Notes under the pieces: model-generated
Databases searched by the model: none
Told to the model about the DNA's origin: nothing
What the model saw: the letters and a program-made list of their open reading frames with translations, nothing else
Translations under genes and position numbers: made by a program
Part shown: positions 6,739-51,055 of the stretch, one piece after another
How positions within the stretch are numbered: the first letter of the stretch is position 1
How the letters are laid out: each line of letters begins with the position of its first letter
NCBI RefSeq assembly: GCF_008728855.1
Contig: NZ_CP042906.1
Location: forward strand, 1 to 64,000
Direction of reading: 5' to 3'
Origin: Hypericibacter terrae
GTDB taxonomy: Bacteria; Pseudomonadota; Alphaproteobacteria; Dongiales; Dongiaceae
DNA length: 64,000 nucleotides

Positions 6739-6910
6739 ATCAAGTGGGGTTATTGCGCAGGATCGGCTCCGGTTCGACCGCGTTAACCTTCCCCTCGAAA
6801 GCGGGCGGCCGACGCGCACCGTTTTCCTTGATCGGCGACAGCAACCGATCATGGGCGTATCTTCCCAGCATCGGCTCCATGCTTGTCAGGAGCCATCGGG
6901 AAGCAGGCCC

Positions 6911-7720
6911 ATGCCTTCCGCTTCATCTCCATGGGCGCCGGCAACGGCGCTGGCCTTTCTTCTGGGTGCCTTCAGCCCCGCCGCCGCGCAACAGCCGGCG
7001 GCCTATGGTTGCGACCGGCCGATTCATCTCGCCTATGCGGAATTCGGCCTGCTCTACCATGCGGGCATCGGCATCGATCCCGACCTGATCGAGGAACTGG
7101 GACAGCGGACCGGATGCCGGTTCGAAACCGAGGTCAAGCCGCGCGACCAGACCTATCAGGGGCTCGAGGCCGGCACCGTCGACATGACCAACAGCGGCAT
7201 CCGGACCGAGGCAAGACGCGAGTTCGCCTACTTCATTCCCTATCTCGGCTGGAAGAACGCGGTGGTCACCACACCCGGGATCGCCGCGATTGCCACGTCC
7301 TTCGACGCGATCGTGACCCACGCCGACTGGCGCATCGGTGTGGTCAGAGGCTATGTCAACGGCCCCTACTACGATTTCCGCCTGCGGATCGCGGCTGCCG
7401 AAGGGCGGGTGATTTCCTATCCGGATCAGGAAGCGGTCTACGGCGCCCTCAAGCGGGGCGAGGTCCAGGCAATCGTTTCGTCCGCCCTCAACTACGATTT
7501 CTTCATGGCGAGTCCCGCCGACCGGGGGACGTTCGTCCTGGAGGCGTTCGATTCAGCGCCCGTCCTCCAATACAACATGATCTTCAGTGTGAAACGCTTC
7601 ACCGTCGCCCAGATCGATGCCTGGTGCCGGCTCTTCGAGCAGATGCGGCTCGACGGCACGCTGGCGCGCATCTATCGCAAATGGTTGTCCGCCGAAGACA
7701 CCGAGGACATTCTTCAGTAG
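6911..7720 (+). CDS. periplasmic solute-binding protein, family 3
   Basis: The 269-residue protein has a signal peptide ending in the AFSPAAAQQ region and a bacterial extracellular solute-binding (SBP_bac_3) fold. Typical segments are LIEELGQRTGCRFE, VDMTNSGIRTEARREFAYFIPY, QEAVYGALKRGEVQAIV and the closing LARIYRKWL. Such proteins bind amino acids or other small ligands in the periplasm. No ABC permease or ATPase lies nearby. The gene ends 29 bases before a Cache/HD-GYP receptor, so a sensory rather than uptake role is likely (inference). The ATG at 6911 was chosen because the signal peptide begins there. Confidence 0.8.
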   Translation: MPSASSPWAPATALAFLLGAFSPAAAQQPAAYGCDRPIHLAYAEFGLLYHAGIGIDPDLIEELGQRTGCRFETEVKPRDQTYQGLEAGTVDMTNSGIRTEARREFAYFIPYLGWKNAVVTTPGIAAIATSFDAIVTHADWRIGVVRGYVNGPYYDFRLRIAAAEGRVISYPDQEAVYGALKRGEVQAIVSSALNYDFFMASPADRGTFVLEAFDSAPVLQYNMIFSVKRFTVAQIDAWCRLFEQMRLDGTLARIYRKWLSAEDTEDILQ

Positions 7721-7749
7721 CCGCATCCAACCCGCAAAGGAATGGTGCC

Positions 7750-10700
7750 ATGGCCGAGGCCTCCATCGTCGCGCGTCCGGCGCCGCCGAGCAGGCGCTTT
7801 CTCTGGCCGCTTCAGGCCGCTTCCACTCTCGGTGTCGTTGCTCTTCTCTTGCTGGTCGTTTCGGTGCTGAGTTGGCAGTCCTACCGCTCGTCCCAGGAAG
7901 CGCTGATCAGCGCTTCCGACGACACCGTCAGCTATATTCAAGATGCGATCGACGGGAAGTTGAGGCGCCTTCTCGACCCGGCACGCGTGCAGCTCGGCTT
8001 TCTGATCCGCGGCGAACTCTCCGAGGCCACCACCTTGCCGGACCGGCTGCGGCAGGTTCCGCTGATGGCAGATGCGCTGAAGCAAAATGAACTCGTCGAG
8101 TCGATCTACATCGGCTATCCGGACGGCGAATTCGTCCTGTTCCGGCTGCTGGGCGACAACCGGCTTCTGCGATCCCAGTTCCAGGCGCCCCCGCAGGCCG
8201 TTCTCGTCGTGCAGTCCATTACGCCGGGCGCCGACGGGACCATGATCGGCGAGTACCACTTTTTCGACGCCAACAACGCCCTCATCGGCACCCGCACGGA
8301 TCCAGATTATCGCTACGACCCGCGCACGCGCCGTTGGTACCTTGCGGCGATCGACGCGCCGGGCCCCATCCTCACCGATCCCTATCTCTTCTTCACCAAC
8401 CGCAAGATCGGCATCACGCTGGCGCAACGAACGGTCGATGGCGGCGGGGTCATCGGTCTCGATCTCCGCGTTCGGGAGCTGGCGGCGGAGATTCAGGACA
8501 TTCGCGTCACCCCCTCGACCGAGATGGCCCTGGTCAACGACCGCCGGCAGGTGGTCGCCTATAATCGCGGGATGGATCGCGCGATATTCCAGGATCGTCA
8601 GGGCCAGCAGGATCTGGCGACCATCGACGAGCTGAATGTCCCTCCCCTGACGGCGGCGGCCAAGCTCGCCTTCGGCGACAGCCTGGTGCGGCGCGAAACC
8701 GCCAAGATCGACGGAAGGAAATGGCAGATCATCGTCTCGAAGATCGAAATCGCCGCCGATCGCAAGCTCGAACTCCTCATCGCGATCCCCAACGACGAGT
8801 TCTTTGCGACGGCAAGAAGCCTGGTGCTGCAGCAATTCCTCATCGTCGGCCTCATCATGCTGCTGGCGATTCCGGCGGCCTGGGGCATGACGCGGCTCGC
8901 GTCCATGCCCTTGCGCCGCTTGGCCGGCGAGACCCGGCGCATCGAAGCCCTGGACTTCAGTTCGGAAGAGAGGGTCCGGAGCCGGTTCCGCGAGATCGAC
9001 AATCTGGGCCGTGGCCTCAACGGGATGAAACTCACGATCCGCAAGTTCCTCAATATCGGCCGCGCGCTCGCGGCCGAGCAGGAGTTCAAGCCGCTTCTCG
9101 ACCGGCTGCTGCTCGAGACCATCGACCTCGTCAAGTGCGATGGCGGCATCATCTATATGTTGGGTGAAGACCATAGGACGCTGACGCCCGAGATCGCACG
9201 ATGGGTCGAGAACGGAACGGTTCACGAGGAGGCCGGCCTTCCGTCCATCATGGTCGACCAGGGCGGTATCGCCGCGGATATCGCCGAAGCGTTGCGCGGC
9301 AAGGACATCGTCGTCTGCGAGCATAAGCTCGATGAGCTCGAGGCGAGCGCCCCGGGCCTGGGCGACATGCTCAAGGCGCTGAATGCGACGCGCGTCACGC
9401 TGGTGACCGTGCCGCTGCTCGACCGGAACAAAATTCCCTTCGGCGTGATGCTCCTGACCAAATGCGCCGGCGCCGGCGTCGAGACCTGGGCGGTCGACGA
9501 AAAGCTGATCCAGCTCATCTACGCGGTGTCCGGCAGCGCCAGCGTCGCCATCCAGAACAAGCTCCTGCTCGATGCGCAGCGCAACCTGACCGATTCGCTC
9601 ATCAAACTCGTCGCCGGTGCCATCGACGCCAAATCACCCTATACGGGCGGGCATTGCCAACGGGTGCCCCTCATCACCCGTCTCCTGGCCCAGGCCGCTG
9701 CTGACCAGAAGACGGGACCGTTCCAGAGCTTCGAGCTGAGCAAGGAGGAATGGGAGGCCTTGCACATCGCCGCCTGGCTCCATGATTGCGGCAAGGTGAC
9801 GACGCCGGAATATGTCGCCGACAAGGCGACGAAGCTGGAGACCATCTGCGACCGGATCCATGAGGTTCGGATGCGTTTCGAGCTGCTCAAGTCGGCAGCG
9901 GAGACCGCTTACTGGAAGGGCCTCGCCAAAGGCGGGGACGAAGCGACGTTGCGGGCCAGGATGACGGCGGAGCAGCAGGCGCTCGACGAGGATTTCGCCT
10001 TTGTGGCCGCCTGCAACGAGGGTGGCGAGTTCCTGGAACCTGCCAAGATCGAACGGATCAAGTCGATTGCCGCGCGGCGCTGGACCCGAACGCTCAGCAA
10101 CCGCCTCGGAACCTCCTACGAGGAGAAGGCCCGATTCGACCGCCAGCCGGAGCCGCCCTTGCCAGCCGAGGAGCCGCTGCTGGCCGATCGCGCCGATCAT
10201 GTGATCGAGATATCCGAACGCGAGATCATTCCGCCCGACAACGAATGGGGCTTCAAGCTGAACATGCCGCAGATGAAGTACAATCGCGGCGAGGTCTACA
10301 ATCTCTGCATCCAGCGCGGGACCTTGACCGAGGAAGAGCGCTACCGGATCAACGATCACATCGTTCAGACCGTCATCATGCTCGAGAGCCTGCCATTTCC
10401 GAAGCATTTGCGGAACGTCCCGGAGCTGGCCGGCGGCCATCACGAGAAGATGGATGGCACGGGCTATCCGAAGCGGCTCAAGGGCGAGGAGATGTCGGTG
10501 GTGGCCAGGATCATGGCGATCGCCGACGTGTTCGAGGCCTTGACCGCCGCCGACCGGCCTTACAAGAAGGCGAAGAAGCTGAGCGAGGCCATCAAGATCA
10601 TGGGCTTCATGAAGAAGGACCGGCATCTCGATCCCGATCTGCTCGACCTGTTCCTGACGTCGGGCGTCTGGCGCGAATATGCGAGCCGCTTCCTGGCGCC

Positions 10701-10758
10701 CGAGCAGGTCGACGAGCCGGACATCAACGCGATCCTGGGCATCAGACCGGCGGCGTAG
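7750..10758 (+). CDS. Cache-HAMP-GAF-HD-GYP signalling protein (probable c-di-GMP phosphodiesterase)
   Basis: The 1002-residue receptor has a first membrane segment at about 20-45 and a periplasmic Cache-like sensor with motifs such as DPDYRYDPRTRRWYLAA. A second membrane segment around 360-380 is followed by HAMP, GAF (about 440-610) and HD-GYP parts. The HD-GYP residues are intact: GGHCQRVP, LHDCGKVTTPEYV (His678), NDHIVQTV, GGHHEKMDGTGYP (His897) and IADVFEALTA. The HD and GYP motifs are about 219 residues apart, roughly 150 more than usual, so a large insertion interrupts the domain. Intact HD-GYP domains hydrolyse cyclic di-GMP. It probably forms an operon with the preceding binding protein. 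Confidence 0.85.
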   Translation: MAEASIVARPAPPSRRFLWPLQAASTLGVVALLLLVVSVLSWQSYRSSQEALISASDDTVSYIQDAIDGKLRRLLDPARVQLGFLIRGELSEATTLPDRLRQVPLMADALKQNELVESIYIGYPDGEFVLFRLLGDNRLLRSQFQAPPQAVLVVQSITPGADGTMIGEYHFFDANNALIGTRTDPDYRYDPRTRRWYLAAIDAPGPILTDPYLFFTNRKIGITLAQRTVDGGGVIGLDLRVRELAAEIQDIRVTPSTEMALVNDRRQVVAYNRGMDRAIFQDRQGQQDLATIDELNVPPLTAAAKLAFGDSLVRRETAKIDGRKWQIIVSKIEIAADRKLELLIAIPNDEFFATARSLVLQQFLIVGLIMLLAIPAAWGMTRLASMPLRRLAGETRRIEALDFSSEERVRSRFREIDNLGRGLNGMKLTIRKFLNIGRALAAEQEFKPLLDRLLLETIDLVKCDGGIIYMLGEDHRTLTPEIARWVENGTVHEEAGLPSIMVDQGGIAADIAEALRGKDIVVCEHKLDELEASAPGLGDMLKALNATRVTLVTVPLLDRNKIPFGVMLLTKCAGAGVETWAVDEKLIQLIYAVSGSASVAIQNKLLLDAQRNLTDSLIKLVAGAIDAKSPYTGGHCQRVPLITRLLAQAAADQKTGPFQSFELSKEEWEALHIAAWLHDCGKVTTPEYVADKATKLETICDRIHEVRMRFELLKSAAETAYWKGLAKGGDEATLRARMTAEQQALDEDFAFVAACNEGGEFLEPAKIERIKSIAARRWTRTLSNRLGTSYEEKARFDRQPEPPLPAEEPLLADRADHVIEISEREIIPPDNEWGFKLNMPQMKYNRGEVYNLCIQRGTLTEEERYRINDHIVQTVIMLESLPFPKHLRNVPELAGGHHEKMDGTGYPKRLKGEEMSVVARIMAIADVFEALTAADRPYKKAKKLSEAIKIMGFMKKDRHLDPDLLDLFLTSGVWREYASRFLAPEQVDEPDINAILGIRPAA

Positions 10759-43656: not shown

Positions 43657-43710
43657 GGGCTCCCGTCGGGTCTTGCGGTGCGGGCGCGTCTGGTCTTTCC
43701 TGGCCCGGTC

Positions 43711-45054
43711 ATGACCGCCGAAACCACACTGACCTCGGGACGTGCCGGACGGGTCCTGGGCCGGCGCGACCATAGCGGCCCGGCCGTGGGCGGCCGGGTC
43801 CGGCGCGGGACGCTCAACACCATCCGCTGGGTGGCGATCCTGGGCCAGCTCCTGGCCCTGTTCTTCACCCATTTCGGCCTCGGCTACGAGCTGCCCCTGG
43901 GTTGGGCGCTCTGCGCCGTCGGGACCTCGGCCCTGGTCAATCTCTGGGCCAGCCGGCGGGGCCGTGCCTCCTCGCGCCTGTCGGATCGCGAGGCGGCCCT
44001 CTATCTGGGCTTCGACCTGGTCGAGCTGGCGGCGCTGCTCTATCTGACCGGCGGCCTCAACAATCCCTTCGCCATCCTGATCCTGGCGCCGGTCACGGTC
44101 TCGGCCGCGACCCTGTCGCGGGCGACCACGGCGGTGCTGGCCGTCCTGGCGGTGGTCGCGGTCGTGGTGCTGTCGCTCTGGCATCTGGCGCTGCCCTGGC
44201 CGACGCCGGGCTTCAGCCTGGAGCCGGTCTTCATCCTCGGGCTGGCAGCGGCCCTCGCCCTCTCGACCCTGTTCGTCGCCATCTATGTCTTCAGCGTCGC
44301 CGAAGAGGCGCGGCGCATGTCCCACGCGCTCTCGGCGACGCAGATGGCGCTCGACCGCGAGCAGCAGGTCTCGGCCCTGGGGGCGCTGGCCGCCGCCGCC
44401 GCCCATGAGCTCGGCAGCCCGCTCGGCACCATCGCCGTCGTGGCCAAGGAGCTTGCGCGCGATCTGCCGCCCGACAGCCCGTTCAAGGACGACGTGCAGC
44501 TGCTGCTGAGCCAGAGCGAGCGCTGCCGCGGCATCCTGGCGAGCCTCGCCGCGAAGCCGGAGGTGGGCGGCGGCACGCCGTTCGACGCCGTCGGGGTCAA
44601 GCAGCTGATCGAGATGACCGCGGCCCCGCATCGCCGCCACGATGTGGACCTGACCATCCAGGAACTTGTTCTCAACAGCGACGGCAATATGGTGGCGCCC
44701 AAGGTGCCGCGGCGGCCCGAGATCCTGCATGGTCTCGGCACCCTGTTGCAGAACGCCATCGAGTTCGCCCGTTCCCAGGTCGAGGTCAAGGCCTTGTGGC
44801 GCGACGGGCAGCTGACCATGACCATTGCCGATGACGGGCCGGGCTTTCCCTCCGACCTGTTGGGCCATCTGGGCGAGCCCTATCTATCAGGGGGCGACCA
44901 GGGCCGGGGCGGGGAACATATGGGGCTCGGGATCTTCATTGCCGAGACCCTGCTGGCGCGGACCGGCGCCACGGTCAGCCTCGCCAATCGACGCGAGGGG
45001 GGCGCCCAGGTTACCATCGAGTGGCCGCGCGGCCCGCTTTCGGATACGGACTAG
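43711..45054 (+). CDS. RegB/PrrB/ActS-type redox sensor histidine kinase
   Basis: The 447-residue membrane kinase has about six transmembrane segments (25-190). They include the quinone-binding type motif YLTGGLNNPFAILILAPVT. The H-box is AAAAHELGSPLGTIAVVAKEL (His232), with the redox-active-type cysteine in SERCRGIL (Cys272). The ATPase domain has N-box ALLQNAIEFA-like and G-box ADDGPGFP and GLGIFIAETLL. RegB-type kinases respond to the quinone pool and oxygen. A GTG 11 codons upstream is an alternative start. The partner RegA follows. Confidence 0.93.
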   Translation: MTAETTLTSGRAGRVLGRRDHSGPAVGGRVRRGTLNTIRWVAILGQLLALFFTHFGLGYELPLGWALCAVGTSALVNLWASRRGRASSRLSDREAALYLGFDLVELAALLYLTGGLNNPFAILILAPVTVSAATLSRATTAVLAVLAVVAVVVLSLWHLALPWPTPGFSLEPVFILGLAAALALSTLFVAIYVFSVAEEARRMSHALSATQMALDREQQVSALGALAAAAAHELGSPLGTIAVVAKELARDLPPDSPFKDDVQLLLSQSERCRGILASLAAKPEVGGGTPFDAVGVKQLIEMTAAPHRRHDVDLTIQELVLNSDGNMVAPKVPRRPEILHGLGTLLQNAIEFARSQVEVKALWRDGQLTMTIADDGPGFPSDLLGHLGEPYLSGGDQGRGGEHMGLGIFIAETLLARTGATVSLANRREGGAQVTIEWPRGPLSDTD

Positions 45055-45108
45055 AATCCGGGCTCGCGGACCCCCATCTCGACGCCAATGCGTCTCGAGG
45101 AGTTGTTC

Positions 45109-45684
45109 ATGACCGATAAGCCCGTCTCCGCCGCCAGCCCCGCCGAGGTTCCGGCCGGAGAGCGAACCCTGCTCCTGGTCGACGATGACGGCCCGTTCCG
45201 GCAACGGCTGGCGCTCGCCATGGAACGGCGCGGTTACGACGTGGCCCAGGCCGACAGCGTCGCGGCTGGCATTGCCGCCGCCAAGGCCCGGCCCCCGCTC
45301 TTCGCCGTGGTCGATCTGCGGCTGGGCGACGGATCGGGGCTCGATGTGGTGACGGCGCTGCGCGACGCCCGGCCGGAAACGCGGGTGGTGGTGCTGACGG
45401 GCTACGGCAATATCGCGACCGCGGTCGCGGCGGTGAAGCAGGGCGCGCTCGATTACCTGCCCAAGCCCGCCGACGCCGACGCGGTCGAATCCGCGCTCCA
45501 GCAGCAGGGCGACGCGCTGCCGCCGCCGCCCGAGCAGCCGATGACCGCCGATCGTGTGCGCTGGGAACATATCCAGCGCGTGTTCGAGCAGTGCGATCGC
45601 AACGTATCCGAGACGGCGCGCCGCCTGCGCATGCATCGGCGCACGCTCCAGCGCATCCTGCAGAAATACGCCCCGCGGACCTGA
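45109..45684 (+). CDS. RegA/PrrA/ActR-type response regulator
   Basis: The 191-residue regulator has a receiver domain with LLLVDDDGPFRQRLALAM and the phospho-acceptor in VVDLRLGDGSGL (Asp69). A Fis-type helix-turn-helix follows (NVSETARRLRMHRRTLQRILQKYAPR), as in RegA. GAGGAG precedes the ATG at 45109 by seven bases. It acts with the upstream RegB kinase as a global redox regulator of respiration, nitrogen or carbon genes (family knowledge). Confidence 0.94.
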   Translation: MTDKPVSAASPAEVPAGERTLLLVDDDGPFRQRLALAMERRGYDVAQADSVAAGIAAAKARPPLFAVVDLRLGDGSGLDVVTALRDARPETRVVVLTGYGNIATAVAAVKQGALDYLPKPADADAVESALQQQGDALPPPPEQPMTADRVRWEHIQRVFEQCDRNVSETARRLRMHRRTLQRILQKYAPRT

Positions 45685-45937: not shown

Positions 45938-47239
45938 CTAGGACGCCTGTCGCTGCGACGGCGCTGCGGCGGGTGCAGCGGCAGGCGCGTTGGCGGCGGC
46001 CGGTGCCGCTGCGGCAGGGGCAGCGGCTGCGCCGCCGGTGGCGCGGGCGCGCATCATGCCGTCGAAATGATGGCCCTGATACATGGTGATGCCGAGCTTC
46101 TGCCCCAGCTCGAGGCAGATTTCGGTTTCGCAGCGCGACAGGATCACGCGATCGCGGCCGATCCGGTCGATCGCCTCCTGGACGTCGCGGGCGACGCGGT
46201 TGTCGAGGTTGGTGGAGAGATCGGGGGTCCATTCGAGCTTGACCAGATCGACGCCGAGCCGTTCGCGGTCCACCATCGGCAGCAACAGCGGCTTCACGCC
46301 GTCGATGCAGATCTTGTAGCCGCGCTCCTTCAGCCATTCTCGCGCGAAGATGTAGGAGCCCGGATCGGCATAGATGTCGATCTGCTGCAGCTCGATGACG
46401 GCGGCGCTGGCGCGTTCGGCGCCCACGATGCGGTCGAACTCCTGGAACTCCGGCGACAGCACGGTCGCGACATTGAGATTGAGCGAAAAGCCACGCTTCG
46501 GGTCGATCTCGCCCTTGCTCTTCAGCAGCGCCAGGACGCGCTGGTCGAGCAGGCGGGTCAGGTGCTGGAACAGCCAGCGATCGGCGGCGATATCGACGCC
46601 CGGCATCACGGCGCGGCCGAGCTCGGCGATCGACACGAAGATCTCGAGCAGCAGCGGCTCGATCTGGCGATTCTCGATCGCGAGACAGATCGGCTGGCGG
46701 CGGACCAGCGGCGAGAGATCCGCGGTGGCGATGGTCTGTTCGATCTGGCCGAGGCGGCGGGGATCCAGCGGCTCGGCCAACGGCTTGGGCTTCGCGTCGC
46801 GCTGGACGGCGGCGGCCTTGCGCTTCGTCAGCGCGTCCTCGGCCGCCTTCTTCAGGTCGGCCCAGTCGGTCTCGAGATTGAACCAGTGGCAGAACCTGTC
46901 TTCCTCGGTGCCGGCATGGCTCAGCAGCGGATCGAGACTGAAGAGATAGCGCAGCCGCGTCACCGGCTCCTCGAGCTCCTCGATGGTCGCGCCCTTGGTG
47001 ATGAAGACGTAGTCGCCGGCCGCGAGCCGGAACAGCGCGCTCTCATGCTTCTTCGCGAGCTTGTCGAAGCAGGAGGCCGCGATGCGGAAATGATGCTCGC
47101 GCCGGTTATAGGGACGCAGCTCCGACAGATGCACGATGACCGCGCGCCGGCCCTCGGTGAAGCGCTCCAGCCTTCCCACATAGTCGAGGAGCGCCTGCTC
47201 CTGATCGACTGTCCTGTTGTCCCGCACGCGATCGTTCAT
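45938..47239 (-). CDS. degenerate GGDEF-EAL protein (probable non-catalytic c-di-GMP effector)
   Basis: The 433-residue soluble protein has an N-terminal GGDEF-like fold where GGDEF has become AAGDY (RLAAGDYVFI, 71-80). The EAL-like part covers about 180-395. There EAL reads EIF (199-201), the metal-binding DD pair reads DG (313-314), and AEGVE reads LSRCE (367-371, first Glu lost). Asn256, Glu283 and Lys334 are kept, so ligand binding may remain but catalysis is unlikely (inference). The C-terminus is an Ala/Pro-rich tail. It lies 47 bases downstream of a LapG-like protease. Confidence 0.75.
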   Translation of the reverse strand: MNDRVRDNRTVDQEQALLDYVGRLERFTEGRRAVIVHLSELRPYNRREHHFRIAASCFDKLAKKHESALFRLAAGDYVFITKGATIEELEEPVTRLRYLFSLDPLLSHAGTEEDRFCHWFNLETDWADLKKAAEDALTKRKAAAVQRDAKPKPLAEPLDPRRLGQIEQTIATADLSPLVRRQPICLAIENRQIEPLLLEIFVSIAELGRAVMPGVDIAADRWLFQHLTRLLDQRVLALLKSKGEIDPKRGFSLNLNVATVLSPEFQEFDRIVGAERASAAVIELQQIDIYADPGSYIFAREWLKERGYKICIDGVKPLLLPMVDRERLGVDLVKLEWTPDLSTNLDNRVARDVQEAIDRIGRDRVILSRCETEICLELGQKLGITMYQGHHFDGMMRARATGGAAAAPAAAAPAAANAPAAAPAAAPSQRQAS

Positions 47240-47286
47240 GGTCTCTCTCTGAATGTCATGTCGCCGCGCCCCGGCTGCGCAAGAGC

Positions 47287-47940
47287 TCAGGCGGGGCGGT
47301 GCAACCACCAACCGGTGTCGTTGACCGAATAGACGGGCTTGTAATGCTTGATGCTGGAGGCCGGCACGACCTTCTGAATCTGATTGTCGAGCACCATCGG
47401 CGTGCCGTCGACATAGACGACCAGGATGGCGTGGCCGAGGCCGAGATTGAGATCGTTCAAGGCGACGATGCGCATCTGGTCGGTCGATACGCCGGAATCG
47501 CGCAACGCATAGAACTTGGCGATCGCGTAATCCTCGCAATCCCCGTTCTTGCGCAGGAACTCGAACGGCGTCGCCCAGTAGTCGGGCTTGCCCCAGTTCA
47601 CCTGATCGAGAATGTATGGATGCGCGTTCATCATGCTGTTGATCGTTCTCAGCTTGGTCTTGAGGTCCAGATCCTTGGTCTGGGCGATGATGCTCTTCCA
47701 GAGCTTGGTATTGCAGAGCGCCGGCGGGCAGCCCGCCAGCTCCTTCGCGAACCGATCCATCACGCCGGTCCATTTCGGGAACTGCTTGAGGCTGGTGCCG
47801 TGAAGCTCCTTGGTTCCAAAAAAGGACGGGGTGAAACCCGCCGCATGGGCCGTTGGGCCGACAGCCAATAACGCGAAGGCGATGATTCCGAAAAGGAGGG
47901 CCAGGGCATCGCGCCGAACCCTCCGGATCGCACCAATCAT
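47287..47940 (-). CDS. BTLCP (LapG-like) periplasmic transglutaminase-type cysteine protease
   Basis: The 217-residue protein has a signal peptide (ALALLFGIIAFALLAVGPTAHA). The bacterial transglutaminase-like domain keeps its catalytic triad: Cys in NGDCEDYAIAKFYALRDSG, His in GLGHAILVVYV and Asp in PMVLDNQ. Family members such as LapG cleave surface adhesins in the periplasm under control of a c-di-GMP receptor. It is transcribed before the degenerate GGDEF-EAL gene, and a CtrA-type site lies 81 bases upstream of its ATG. Confidence 0.88.
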   Translation of the reverse strand: MIGAIRRVRRDALALLFGIIAFALLAVGPTAHAAGFTPSFFGTKELHGTSLKQFPKWTGVMDRFAKELAGCPPALCNTKLWKSIIAQTKDLDLKTKLRTINSMMNAHPYILDQVNWGKPDYWATPFEFLRKNGDCEDYAIAKFYALRDSGVSTDQMRIVALNDLNLGLGHAILVVYVDGTPMVLDNQIQKVVPASSIKHYKPVYSVNDTGWWLHRPA

Positions 47941-48239: not shown

Positions 48240-50351
48240 TTGTCAGACATCGAAGCGAGAGCCGCCGGGCAGCGACGCAAGGCGGGGGTTACCCTTGCGA
48301 TCGGCCTGATCGTCCTGCTGGCGGTTGCGGTCGTCGGTGTGCTCCTGGTTTTACGGTTCGTTGAGGATCAGCGCCAACAGGACCTGCTCGCCTGGCAGAC
48401 CCGGCTGAGCATCATCGCCGACAGCCGCAAGGCGGACGTCGAGGCCTGGATCACCCGCCAGCTCGACGATGTCAGCAGCCTCGCCAACAATGCCTCGCTG
48501 CAGCTCTATATGGCCCAGCTCCTGACGGGCGGTACTCCGGACGAAAACGGGGGCGACAATACCGGCGAGACGCCCTTCGAGGCCGACTATCTGACCAACC
48601 TGCTGACGGTGGCGGCGGAACGCGACGGCTTCGCGGCGCCCAAGCCCACCGAGGTCAATGCCAATGTGGCGCTGCCGGCCGTGGCCGGCATGGCGCTGGT
48701 GGACAAGGACGGCAAGGTCCTGGTGGCCACCCCGGGCATGCCGCCGATCGAGGGTGCGCTCAAGGACTTCGTTCTCAACCTCAAGCCCGGCACCCGGGGC
48801 GTCATGGATATCTTCATCGATTCCACGGGCGAAGCGGCCATGGGCTTCGCCGCGCCGGTCTATGGCGTCCAGGCGGACACGACCTCGCAGGCGCTGGGCC
48901 TGGTGGTCGGCGTCAAGCAGGTGGCCAAGGAGCTGTTCCCGCTGCTGCGTCAGCCGGGCGAGACCATGAAGACGGCGCGCGACGTGCTGGTGCGCAAGGT
49001 GGGCGACGACACGGTCGAGTACATCTCGCCGCTCGAAGATGGCACGCCGCCCCTGGGCCTGCGGCTCAACAAGAACACCCCCGAGCTCGACGCGGCCCTC
49101 GCCGTCGTCGCGGCCAGCGGTTTCGCGCTGCGGCGCGACCATGCCGGGAGGGAGGTGCTGGCGGCGACCCGCGGTGCCTTCCGCGACGTCCCCTGGGCCC
49201 TGATCTACGAGGTCGAACGCAAGGAAGCGCTGGCCGACAGCGACGCCCGCGCCTCGCGCCTGCTGGTCATGCTGCTGCTGGCGGTGGGCTTCGTGGCCGT
49301 GACCCTGCTCGCCGCCTGGTGGCTCATCTCCTCGCGGCGCTATGCCGAATCCGCCGAGCGCCACCGCGCCACGGCCGAACGGCTCGAATCGCAGCGCCGT
49401 CTGCTGCGCCTCGTCACCGACAGTCAGCCGACCGAGATCGCGATCTTCAATGCCGACAACAAATATCGCTTCGCCAACAAGGCGGCGGCCGACCGTACCG
49501 GGCTATCTCCGGACGATCTGGTCGGCAAGCCGCTCGAGAATGTGATCGGGCCGGCGGCGGCCGAGCCGATCGAGGCCCTCAACAAGAAGGCGCTCGAGGC
49601 CAACCAGCCGGTCGAGGAGACCCGCAAGCTGCCGACGGGCCGCGTCCTGCATTCGATCCATGTGCCGGTACCCGCCAGCGCCGGCGAACCCGCGGGCGTG
49701 CTGGTGACGCATGAGGATCTGACCGATGCCTTCCGCGAGCGCGAACGGCGTGAACGGCTGCAGGACCAGCTCGTCAATGCGCTGGTCGGCGTGGTCGATC
49801 GCCGCGATCCGTTCTCGGCCGAGCATTCCACGCGGGTCGGCAAGCTGGCGCGTGAGATCGCGACCGAGATGGGCCTGACGCCCGTGCAGATCTCGACCGC
49901 GCAGACGGCCGGTCAGTTGATGAATCTGGGCAAGATCCTGATCGATCCGGCGCTCCTGACCAAAGGTGCCAACCTCACCGAGGATGAGCGCCAGCAGATC
50001 CGGCGCGCCATGCTCGCCTCGGGCGACCTGCTGCAGGGCGTCGAGTTCGATGGACCGGTCTCGGAGACGCTGCGCCAGGCGCTGACGCGCTGGGACGGCA
50101 CCGGCGTGCCCGCCGGGCTCAAGGGCGAGGATATCCTGCCCACCGCGCGCGTCATCGCCGTCGCCAATGCCTTTGTCGGCATGCTGAGCGCGCGCGCCCA
50201 TCGTTCGGCCTTGACGGTGGACGATGCGATCAATGCGATCATGCACGACGTCGGCAAGGCGTTCGACCGTCGCGCCGTCGCGGCCCTGGTCAATTACATG
50301 GACAACCGGGCCGGCCGCGCCGAATGGGTGCAAGGAGCGGGCGCAAGCTGA
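48240..50351 (+). CDS. membrane receptor with periplasmic sensor, PAS and catalytically inactive HD-GYP domain
   Basis: The 703-residue protein has a first membrane segment (about 18-40), a periplasmic domain to about 340, a second membrane segment (LLLAVGFVAVTLLAAWWLI) and a PAS domain (PTEIAIFNADNKYRFANKAAADRT). It ends in an HD-GYP domain. The HD pair is replaced by Met561-Asn562 (LMNLGKI), HHE by Ala-Leu-Thr (614-616), and GYP by GVP (622-624). It should not hydrolyse c-di-GMP and probably acts as a receptor. TTG at 48240 with GAGGAG upstream is the best start. Confidence 0.78.
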   Translation: MSDIEARAAGQRRKAGVTLAIGLIVLLAVAVVGVLLVLRFVEDQRQQDLLAWQTRLSIIADSRKADVEAWITRQLDDVSSLANNASLQLYMAQLLTGGTPDENGGDNTGETPFEADYLTNLLTVAAERDGFAAPKPTEVNANVALPAVAGMALVDKDGKVLVATPGMPPIEGALKDFVLNLKPGTRGVMDIFIDSTGEAAMGFAAPVYGVQADTTSQALGLVVGVKQVAKELFPLLRQPGETMKTARDVLVRKVGDDTVEYISPLEDGTPPLGLRLNKNTPELDAALAVVAASGFALRRDHAGREVLAATRGAFRDVPWALIYEVERKEALADSDARASRLLVMLLLAVGFVAVTLLAAWWLISSRRYAESAERHRATAERLESQRRLLRLVTDSQPTEIAIFNADNKYRFANKAAADRTGLSPDDLVGKPLENVIGPAAAEPIEALNKKALEANQPVEETRKLPTGRVLHSIHVPVPASAGEPAGVLVTHEDLTDAFRERERRERLQDQLVNALVGVVDRRDPFSAEHSTRVGKLAREIATEMGLTPVQISTAQTAGQLMNLGKILIDPALLTKGANLTEDERQQIRRAMLASGDLLQGVEFDGPVSETLRQALTRWDGTGVPAGLKGEDILPTARVIAVANAFVGMLSARAHRSALTVDDAINAIMHDVGKAFDRRAVAALVNYMDNRAGRAEWVQGAGAS

Positions 50352-51055
50352 CCCAGAGGACGCACCTTCCCGCCGGCCGGCGCATTTATGCGATCGGCGA
50401 CGTGCATGGTCGCGCCGACCTCCTCGCCATGCTGCAGCGGCGGATCGCGGCCGACCTGGAGCGCCATCCGATCGCGGATCCGCTCCTGATCTGCCTCGGC
50501 GACTATGTGGATCGGGGCCCGGATTCGGCGGGCGTGCTCGATCTGCTGCTCGGCGAGGCGCCGGCCGGCATGAAGCGCATCGCGCTCCTGGGCAATCACG
50601 AAGAACTGATGCTGCGCTTCCTGGTCGACGACAGCGCGGGTCCGGTCTGGTTCGCCAATGGCGGCGACGCGACGCTCGAGAGCTACGGGGTCGATGCGCT
50701 CGATTCCTACGACCGGGCGCGCCGCCAGTTCGAGCGGCTGTTCCCCGCTCGTCATCGCGCGTTCCTGGAATCACTGCCGATCAGCCATAGCGAGGGCGAC
50801 TATTTCTTCGCCCATGCGGGGGTGCGGCCGGGAACGGCGCTGGGCGACCAGCGGCGCGAGGATCTGCTGTGGATCCGCGGCGAGTTCCTGCGTTCCGAGG
50901 CCGATCACGGCAAGGTCGTGGTCCATGGCCATTCGATCGCGGCCGAGCCGGAGAGTCGGCCCAACCGGATCGGGATCGATACCGGTGCCTATGCCTCCGG
51001 CCGGCTGACCTGCCTGGTGCTGGAAGGCGAGAAGCGGCGCTTTTTCGTCACCTGA
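50324..51055 (+). CDS. PPP-type metallophosphoesterase (Ser/Thr phosphatase-like)
   Basis: The 243-residue protein has the PPP motifs GDVHGR, GDYVDRGPDS and GNHEELMLRF, then the VVHGHSIAAEPE histidine motif. It should dephosphorylate proteins or diadenosine tetraphosphate-like substrates with a two-metal centre. The ATG lies inside the end of the receptor gene (28-base overlap), so translation is likely coupled and the two may work together (inference). Confidence 0.85.
   Translation: MGARSGRKLTQRTHLPAGRRIYAIGDVHGRADLLAMLQRRIAADLERHPIADPLLICLGDYVDRGPDSAGVLDLLLGEAPAGMKRIALLGNHEELMLRFLVDDSAGPVWFANGGDATLESYGVDALDSYDRARRQFERLFPARHRAFLESLPISHSEGDYFFAHAGVRPGTALGDQRREDLLWIRGEFLRSEADHGKVVVHGHSIAAEPESRPNRIGIDTGAYASGRLTCLVLEGEKRRFFVT

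Follow-up and report, generated by a model that had tools for sequence, protein, structure and literature searches.

The stretch of DNA analysed here (the window) comprises 64,000 nucleotides, positions 1 to 64,000 of contig NZ_CP042906.1 of Hypericibacter terrae (GCF_008728855.1). At 48240..50351 on the forward strand it contains an uninterrupted frame of 703 residues, encoding a membrane protein, here called the receptor, with the order transmembrane segment, dCache domain, transmembrane segment, PAS domain and catalytically dead HD-GYP domain. The frame starts with TTG at 48240, from which all residues are numbered here. The sequence GAGGAG lies just 5' of this start, and the relatives L019 (MSDI...) and L003 (MSVRDI...) have ATG at or near the same position. 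In a Pfam scan, the periplasmic domain (residues 46-333, 48375..49238, forward strand) matches dCache_1 with 29.4 bits, which is below the cut-off of 45; the PAS domain (residues 385-497, 49392..49730, forward) matches PAS_4 at 4e-13, above the cut-off; and the HD-GYP domain (residues 506-693, 49755..50318, forward) matches HD_5 with 102 bits, the cut-off being 27.2. The same scan of the receptor gave neither LapD_MoxY_N nor GGDEF-EAL. A gene for a calcineurin-like phosphoesterase (50324-51055, forward) overlaps the end of the receptor gene and adjoins it in many relatives.

Divergent from the receptor gene, 300 bases away, is a gene on the reverse strand (47287..47940) for a LapG-type cysteine protease (Peptidase_C93/BTLCP), which matches Peptidase_C93 with 63.6 bits (cut-off 27) and is the single C93 gene in the genome. 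Its N-terminus is hydrophobic and resembles a signal peptide. The best solved relatives are 4u65 and 4fgo, which we take to be LapG proteins. Since the LapG equivalog model NF045674 gives 114.5 bits, far below its cut-off of 320, the protein is described here as LapG-type and not as LapG proper. The catalytic triad Cys135, His170 and Asp185 and the calcium pair Asp134/Glu136 are intact, and these residues are retained in 68-69 of the 69 distinct proteases found in the fetched loci. A search of the interval between the protease and receptor genes for sigma-70-type promoter and terminator patterns gave none. The protease, which the sequence-only reading had not taken into account, indicates what the receptor probably controls.

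Behind the protease gene, also on the reverse strand, is an EAL-like protein (45938..47260). It matches EAL with 30.2 bits, just under the cut-off of 31.3, and the match lacks the first 53 profile positions, so that the protein is probably not an active phosphodiesterase. Its gene adjoins the protease-receptor pair in most, not all, close relatives; it is possibly a third member of the system, in close relatives only. A histidine kinase and a Fis-type response regulator (43678-45684, forward), presumably RegB/RegA-like, also accompany the two genes in many close relatives.

The pairing of receptor and protease is widespread. Near-full-length relatives of the receptor occur in 21 of the 61 whole genomes close to the window's own (E 3.9e-152 or better), and any match to the family at 1e-20 in 24 of them. 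All 16 regions taken from 16 of those 21 genomes have the protease divergent upstream. A scan of named genomes gave 193 candidate relatives, of which the best 80 were used; the genera among these 80 include Dongia, Sneathiella, Magnetospirillum-type organisms, Roseospirillum, Pacificispira and Marivibrio, together with many Rhodospirillales MAGs. A few relatives carry names that suggest mislabelled or mixed MAGs (Anaerolineae, Mesoflavibacter). The protease is divergent upstream at 63 of the 72 testable named loci (63 of all 80), some of these being the same genomes as in the 16-region set. For eight of the remaining 17 the record ends less than 600 bases upstream, and nine genuinely have no protease there; seven of those nine genomes have one elsewhere, and in two none was found.

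The same association is seen across 289 alphaproteobacterial genomes. The receptor family is present in 46 of them (E 1e-60), and 40 of these 46 contain a C93 protease, compared to 40 of the 243 genomes without the family (Fisher value 1.8e-20, which ignores kinship between genomes); the other six receptor-family genomes have no C93 match. A C93 protease lies within 3 kb of 38 of 51 receptor genes, divergent in 28 cases, upstream on the same strand in eight and downstream in two. In one of the same-strand cases, L026 (G056:C3:220328-222852), the protease is followed by a DvhD-like receptor with SQ in place of HD and MY in place of HH, and some 9 kb from it the genome has a second, divergent pair like that of the window. 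Cases such as this follow the DvhG-DvhD order of D. vulgaris (described below) and look like DvhD counterparts. In another genome (L042, G014) two tandem C93 protease genes lie beside the receptor.

The HD-GYP domain was compared with active PmGH, in which eight residues bind metal: E185, H189, H221, D222, H250, H276, H277 and D305 (PMC4159591). The sequence-only reading had given the HD pair as Met-Asn, HHE as Ala-Leu-Thr and GYP as Gly-Val-Pro within a retained fold, and the alignment bears this out: M561-N562 stands in place of His-Asp (49920..49925), A614-L615-T616 in place of His-His-Glu (50079..50087) and G622-V623-P624 in place of Gly-Tyr-Pro (50103..50111), all on the forward strand, and the fold motifs are present as LMNLGKI, RWDGTG and LKGEDI. 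It had also held that all metal ligands are lost. This is true of seven of the eight, but H189 persists as His529 (49824..49826, forward), the sole retained metal-ligand position. The seven replaced positions are F525, M561, N562, A590, A614, L615 and N643, the last of these (50166..50168, forward) standing for D305; alternative ligands at these sites were looked for, and the set is restored neither by any of the seven residues nor by those that most relatives have (S/A, L/A/I/M, Q/G and N). Of the other PmGH residues, catalytic D183 and K225 are retained as D523 and K565, and substrate-binding R314 and K317 correspond to R652 and R655. An active HD-GYP enzyme was rejected as an identification, since seven metal ligands, including the HD pair, are missing. 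The window does contain, for contrast, an ordinary HD-GYP protein of 1308 residues (6832-10755, forward) with intact motifs LHDCGK, GGHHEKMDGTGYP and AIADVFEAL. It has a long insertion between HD and HHE.

The dead state is old and common to the whole family. An alignment was made of 87 non-redundant sequences including the window's (14 duplicates were removed), together with DvhD, PmGH, PA4781 and other HD-GYP domains. Three of the 87 rows are gapped through most of the ligand stretch. H221, D222, H250, H276 and D305 are retained in none of the 83-84 sequences with a residue there; E185 is retained in 0/84 and H277 in 2/84, while H189 is retained in 76/84 and K225 in 83/84. The replacements are restricted: the family has M, L or I at H221, N or S at D222, mostly S or A at H250, hydrophobic or small residues at H276, mostly Q or G at H277, and N at D305 (83/83). 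The column of the GYP tyrosine ranks 187th of 188 in conservation. A comparison of the two genomes of the genus by NG86 gives a dN/dS of 0.0624/0.489, or about 0.13, for the whole protein and of 0.0395/0.646, or about 0.06, for the HD domain. The dead state is thus under purifying selection, and is due neither to chance nor to decay.

A protein of this kind has recently been described. In April 2026 DvhD (DVU1020) of Desulfovibrio vulgaris Hildenborough (PDB 9rbz, 9rc0, 9rc2) was reported as a dead HD-GYP protein that can replace LapD in sulphate reducers, and the question of its origin was asked (PMC13090378). According to the same source, both the HD pair and the HH pair are gone from DvhD, and the protein binds c-di-GMP with an effective Kd of about 99 nM (and 3'3'-cGAMP with about fivefold lower affinity) and has no hydrolytic activity towards it. 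DvhD controls a LapG-like protease, DvhG, most orthologs of which have signal peptides, and the two proteins have been reconstituted in a P. fluorescens strain that lacks lapD and lapG (PMC13090378). The word Alphaproteobacteria is absent from the main text of that paper; its Fig. 9b, which shows the classes with DvhDG, and its Supplementary Data 1 may include some (PMC13090378).

Several comparisons place the receptor close to DvhD. A sequence search of the PDB gives 9rbz (E 8.7e-30) and 9rc0 (2.2e-29) first, with the next unrelated entry at 3.7e-18 and the active enzymes 5z7c, 4mcw and 4r8z well behind; the family profile matches the PAS/HD-GYP part of DvhD across 313 residues at 3.7e-66. 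An AlphaFold2 model of the receptor was built from 52 rows (mean pLDDT 87.4, pTM 0.52). Its best matches are 9rbz for the HD-GYP domain (Z 26.0) and 9rc0 for PAS/HD-GYP (Z 25.9), although differences of less than 1 in Z are ties and active HD-GYP chains also exceed 22, so that the fold alone is not decisive. Foldseek places the DvhD structures at ranks 1-5 and 11. For the periplasmic domain, sequence search against solved structures gave no relative (best E 0.6, a designed ankyrin protein), and it was fold comparison that revealed the likeness to DvhD: the modelled dCache domain matches 9rc2 with Z 20.8 over 247 residues, the next dCache-type row being at 17.9.

The tree does more than the fold to establish the relationship. 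The receptor family, DvhD, L026 and L022 form one 34-row clade of dead domains with support 100/98, and masking 12 columns that hold ligands and motifs leaves this support at 100/98. Two groupings that break this clade are each 12.6 log units worse, with AU p 0.029 each; there are long branches among the rows, including L022 and L026. The tree thus points to common descent with DvhD, apart from the active HD-GYP domains, with moderate AU support. L022 (G031:C1:160797-161279) is another degenerate HD-GYP domain, with LNIGKL and EQAFERLDGSG, in a genome whose C93 protease is about 21 kb away.

The receptor and DvhD share the dCache-TM-PAS-HD-GYP build, the dead HD-GYP domain, the HD clade and a broken first periplasmic helix. 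In both cases the partner gene encodes a LapG-type BTLCP protease with a C-H-D triad and a D-C-E calcium motif, and the genome encodes adhesin-type proteins with [TAP]AAG sites. However, the HD-GYP domains are about 32% identical and the dCache domains 15%, and the loss in the receptor is deeper, extending to H250, the Asp of HD (now Asn) and the GYP tyrosine, whereas DvhD still has H250 and the GYP tyrosine. The protease gene is here divergent and not part of one operon, and the candidate adhesins are encoded elsewhere; the DvhG of D. vulgaris has a transmembrane anchor, whereas the window's protease has a signal-peptide-like start. No adhesin or type I secretion gene adjoins the receptor in the window. 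Membership of a complete Dvh operon was therefore rejected, and the locus is classed as a pair of a protease and a DvhD-type receptor. It is ordinary in kind since the description of DvhD, yet it represents a separate branch that differs in residues and gene order.

From the alignment, the HD-GYP domain appears to retain much of the nucleotide pocket. Only three of the eight canonical c-di-GMP contacts of DvhD are identical (L579, M648 and R652), four are more mildly changed (F525, R584, H654 and D670), and at V623 the GYP tyrosine is lost. DvhD R653 is also conserved, as R655. In the family (DvhD numbering) R650 is retained in 82/83, R653 in 83/83, M646 in 78/83 and L577 in 83/84, and in 82/83 the residue at Y652 is aromatic or His (Y, W, F or H). 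Active HD-GYP domains, too, often have R650 and R653, which are therefore not specific to receptors. The residues of the second, bridging c-di-GMP site of DvhD, K520, P567 and R569, correspond to R522, D569 and A571 here. Two of these three thus differ; P567 is retained in 74/84 sequences and is Asp in the window's genus. The effect of c-di-GMP on DvhD becomes weaker when P567 is altered, and the paper leaves open whether the bridging site is special to DvhD (PMC13090378). The few identical contacts, the missing GYP tyrosine and the Asp at the bridging site speak against the receptor being a plain copy of DvhD.

For the periplasmic side, the authors of DvhD place the protease contact, in a model, at helix alpha1' (PMC13090378). 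In our model of the receptor there are helices at 2-82 and 85-96, with the break at 83-84 as in DvhD, and sequence windows from 81 to 84 are within the top 18 of 279 for conservation in the periplasmic domain; the segment 81-93 is well conserved. This coincidence with the modelled contact of DvhD is only suggestive, the best-conserved periplasmic segment being residues 50-63 and not 81-93.

LapD and LapG form a textbook route from c-di-GMP to cell detachment. The receptor is predicted to have the same job as LapD of Pseudomonas fluorescens, that of a membrane receptor tying cytosolic c-di-GMP to a periplasmic LapG and adhesin release. LapD, however, has a LapD/MoxY periplasmic domain and HAMP-GGDEF-EAL, and the receptor has none of these; with no LapD_MoxY_N and no GGDEF-EAL, its identification as LapD was rejected. 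A search for LapD_MoxY_N (PF16448) found none in the window's genome, and among the 21 receptor-family genomes a single weak partial match (G014, 51 positions, 25.4 bits). As a positive control, the same search matches 44 of 150 genomes of the phylum; seven alphaproteobacterial genomes in this control have weak matches. Two other known types were compared. The active phosphodiesterases PmGH (4mcw) and PA4781 (4r8z) share the fold and the general order of motifs with the receptor, which differs in having seven of the eight metal ligands replaced. Bd1817 of Bdellovibrio (3tm8), an unconventional inactive HD-GYP protein, matches the receptor model with Z 16.9 but retains a binuclear iron centre (PMC4159591).

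A search of the genome for the LapA-type retention module, made with possible protease substrates in view, gave five weak matches, all below the curated cut-off, at 2.37, 2.37, 2.83, 4.10 and 4.63 Mb; none is in the window and all are far from the receptor gene. Four are in long frames (3502 residues near 4.63 Mb, 2440 and 1486 near 2.37 Mb, and 945 near 4.10 Mb), and the fifth, a frame of 215 residues at 2.83 Mb, was outside the motif check. Three of these candidate adhesins were scanned for domains. Cadherin and Calx-beta repeats occur in all three and RTX repeats in two; a type I secretion end was seen in one, and a FecR domain above the cut-off in one. The toxin names in their domain lists reflect shared calcium-binding repeats only.

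In all four of the genome's own long candidates the retention-like core is followed, 96 to 119 residues on, by the motif [TAP]AAG, as FETAAGS, INTAAGGG, FQTAAGGP and IVPAAGGG. Eight loci were fetched for the retention-module search, L050 being outside the motif check. When four long proteins from relatives are added, [TAP]AAG lies 96-145 residues behind the core in 8/8 long proteins; in two of the relatives' four a DP closely precedes the motif, a feature of the published LapG consensus. L048 and L053, which share the core but are short (frames of 241 and 276 residues), have no [TAP]AAG. Shuffling gave single probabilities of 0.024 to 0.110 for the motif placement and a product of 2.5e-10, which treats related proteins as independent and depends on an anchoring core chosen after the sequences had been seen. 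On these motifs, the four large [TAP]AAG proteins are likely substrates of the window's protease.

Taking these observations together, we consider it probable that the receptor is a DvhD-type inside-out receptor for c-di-GMP, standing in for LapD in Alphaproteobacteria, both nucleotide binding and protease control being argued by analogy with DvhD. The earlier suggestion of a shift from enzyme to receptor is supported by the homology to DvhD and by the single clade of dead domains, with the receptor role assigned by homology. At high c-di-GMP, the dead HD-GYP domain would bind the nucleotide without metal, and binding would drive apart the stalk helices of the dimer. The PAS domain would relay the signal across the membrane to the dCache domain; the latter would restrain the periplasmic protease, so that the adhesins remain anchored. 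When c-di-GMP drops, the protease would be freed, the adhesins would be cut behind the retention module, and the cell would detach. The receptor would thus do what LapD does, using domains unrelated to those of LapD.

The signal could alternatively run from outside to inside, with the dCache or PAS domain binding a small molecule and setting the protease, and the dead HD-GYP domain acting as a dimerisation scaffold that binds no nucleotide. In favour of this, both domains are sensor folds, chemoreceptors and kinases match the model at Z 14 to 18, and neither the GYP tyrosine nor the bridging site is retained. On the other hand, 94 to 100% of relatives have pocket residues R652, R655, M648 and L579, with no catalytic need for them, and the related pocket in DvhD does bind c-di-GMP (PMC13090378). 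The HD domain is also the best conserved of the three: its mean of 3.00 bits exceeds those of dCache (2.64) and PAS (2.38). We regard such a sensor as unlikely.

More doubtful again is that the receptor recognises a different nucleotide, 3'3'-cGAMP or pGpG for example. The acceptance of 3'3'-cGAMP by DvhD, about fivefold weaker (PMC13090378), would leave room for this, as would the changes at two pocket positions, where base-contacting E668 of DvhD is D670 and the GYP tyrosine is gone. It is nevertheless c-di-GMP that is the ligand of the sole relative studied.

A residual or unusual phosphodiesterase, working with fewer metals or by another mechanism, is very improbable. It could call on H529, D523 and K565, the counterparts of PmGH H189, D183 and K225, but seven of the eight ligands are replaced, and at five of these positions not one relative with a residue in the column has kept the ligand. 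In PmGH, single changes to Ala at H189, H221, D222, H250, H276 or H277 essentially abolish activity (PMC4159591), and DvhD is inactive with fewer losses (PMC13090378). A decaying gene without function, which the loss of catalytic residues taken alone might suggest, is scarcely credible, given the low dN/dS (about 0.06 in the HD domain, 0.13 overall), the intact full-length frames and the neighbour conserved in many genera, and a pseudogene was rejected on these selection and conservation data.

The DvhD-type reading can be taken further, although here our confidence falls somewhat short of even. In much of the Alphaproteobacteria, LapG-type proteases may receive their c-di-GMP signal mainly from dead HD-GYP receptors, and not from LapD. 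The genes would come in two arrangements, the divergent one of the window and the one of D. vulgaris, in which the protease gene precedes the receptor gene on one strand. The Desulfovibrio system would then be one branch of an older and wider family. In the window's branch, the replacement of two acidic metal ligands by an invariant or nearly invariant Asn would have made the metal site into a metal-free phosphate site, and sensing would proceed without the bridging molecule of DvhD.

For annotators, the consequence is that genes of the receptor family should not be counted as phosphodiesterases. The relatives form a large set in which the protease partner is conserved: one scan gave 193 candidate stretches, and the family is present in 46 of 289 alphaproteobacterial genomes. 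The family makes the origin of the DvhD system a testable question, and names the likely substrates in one genome.
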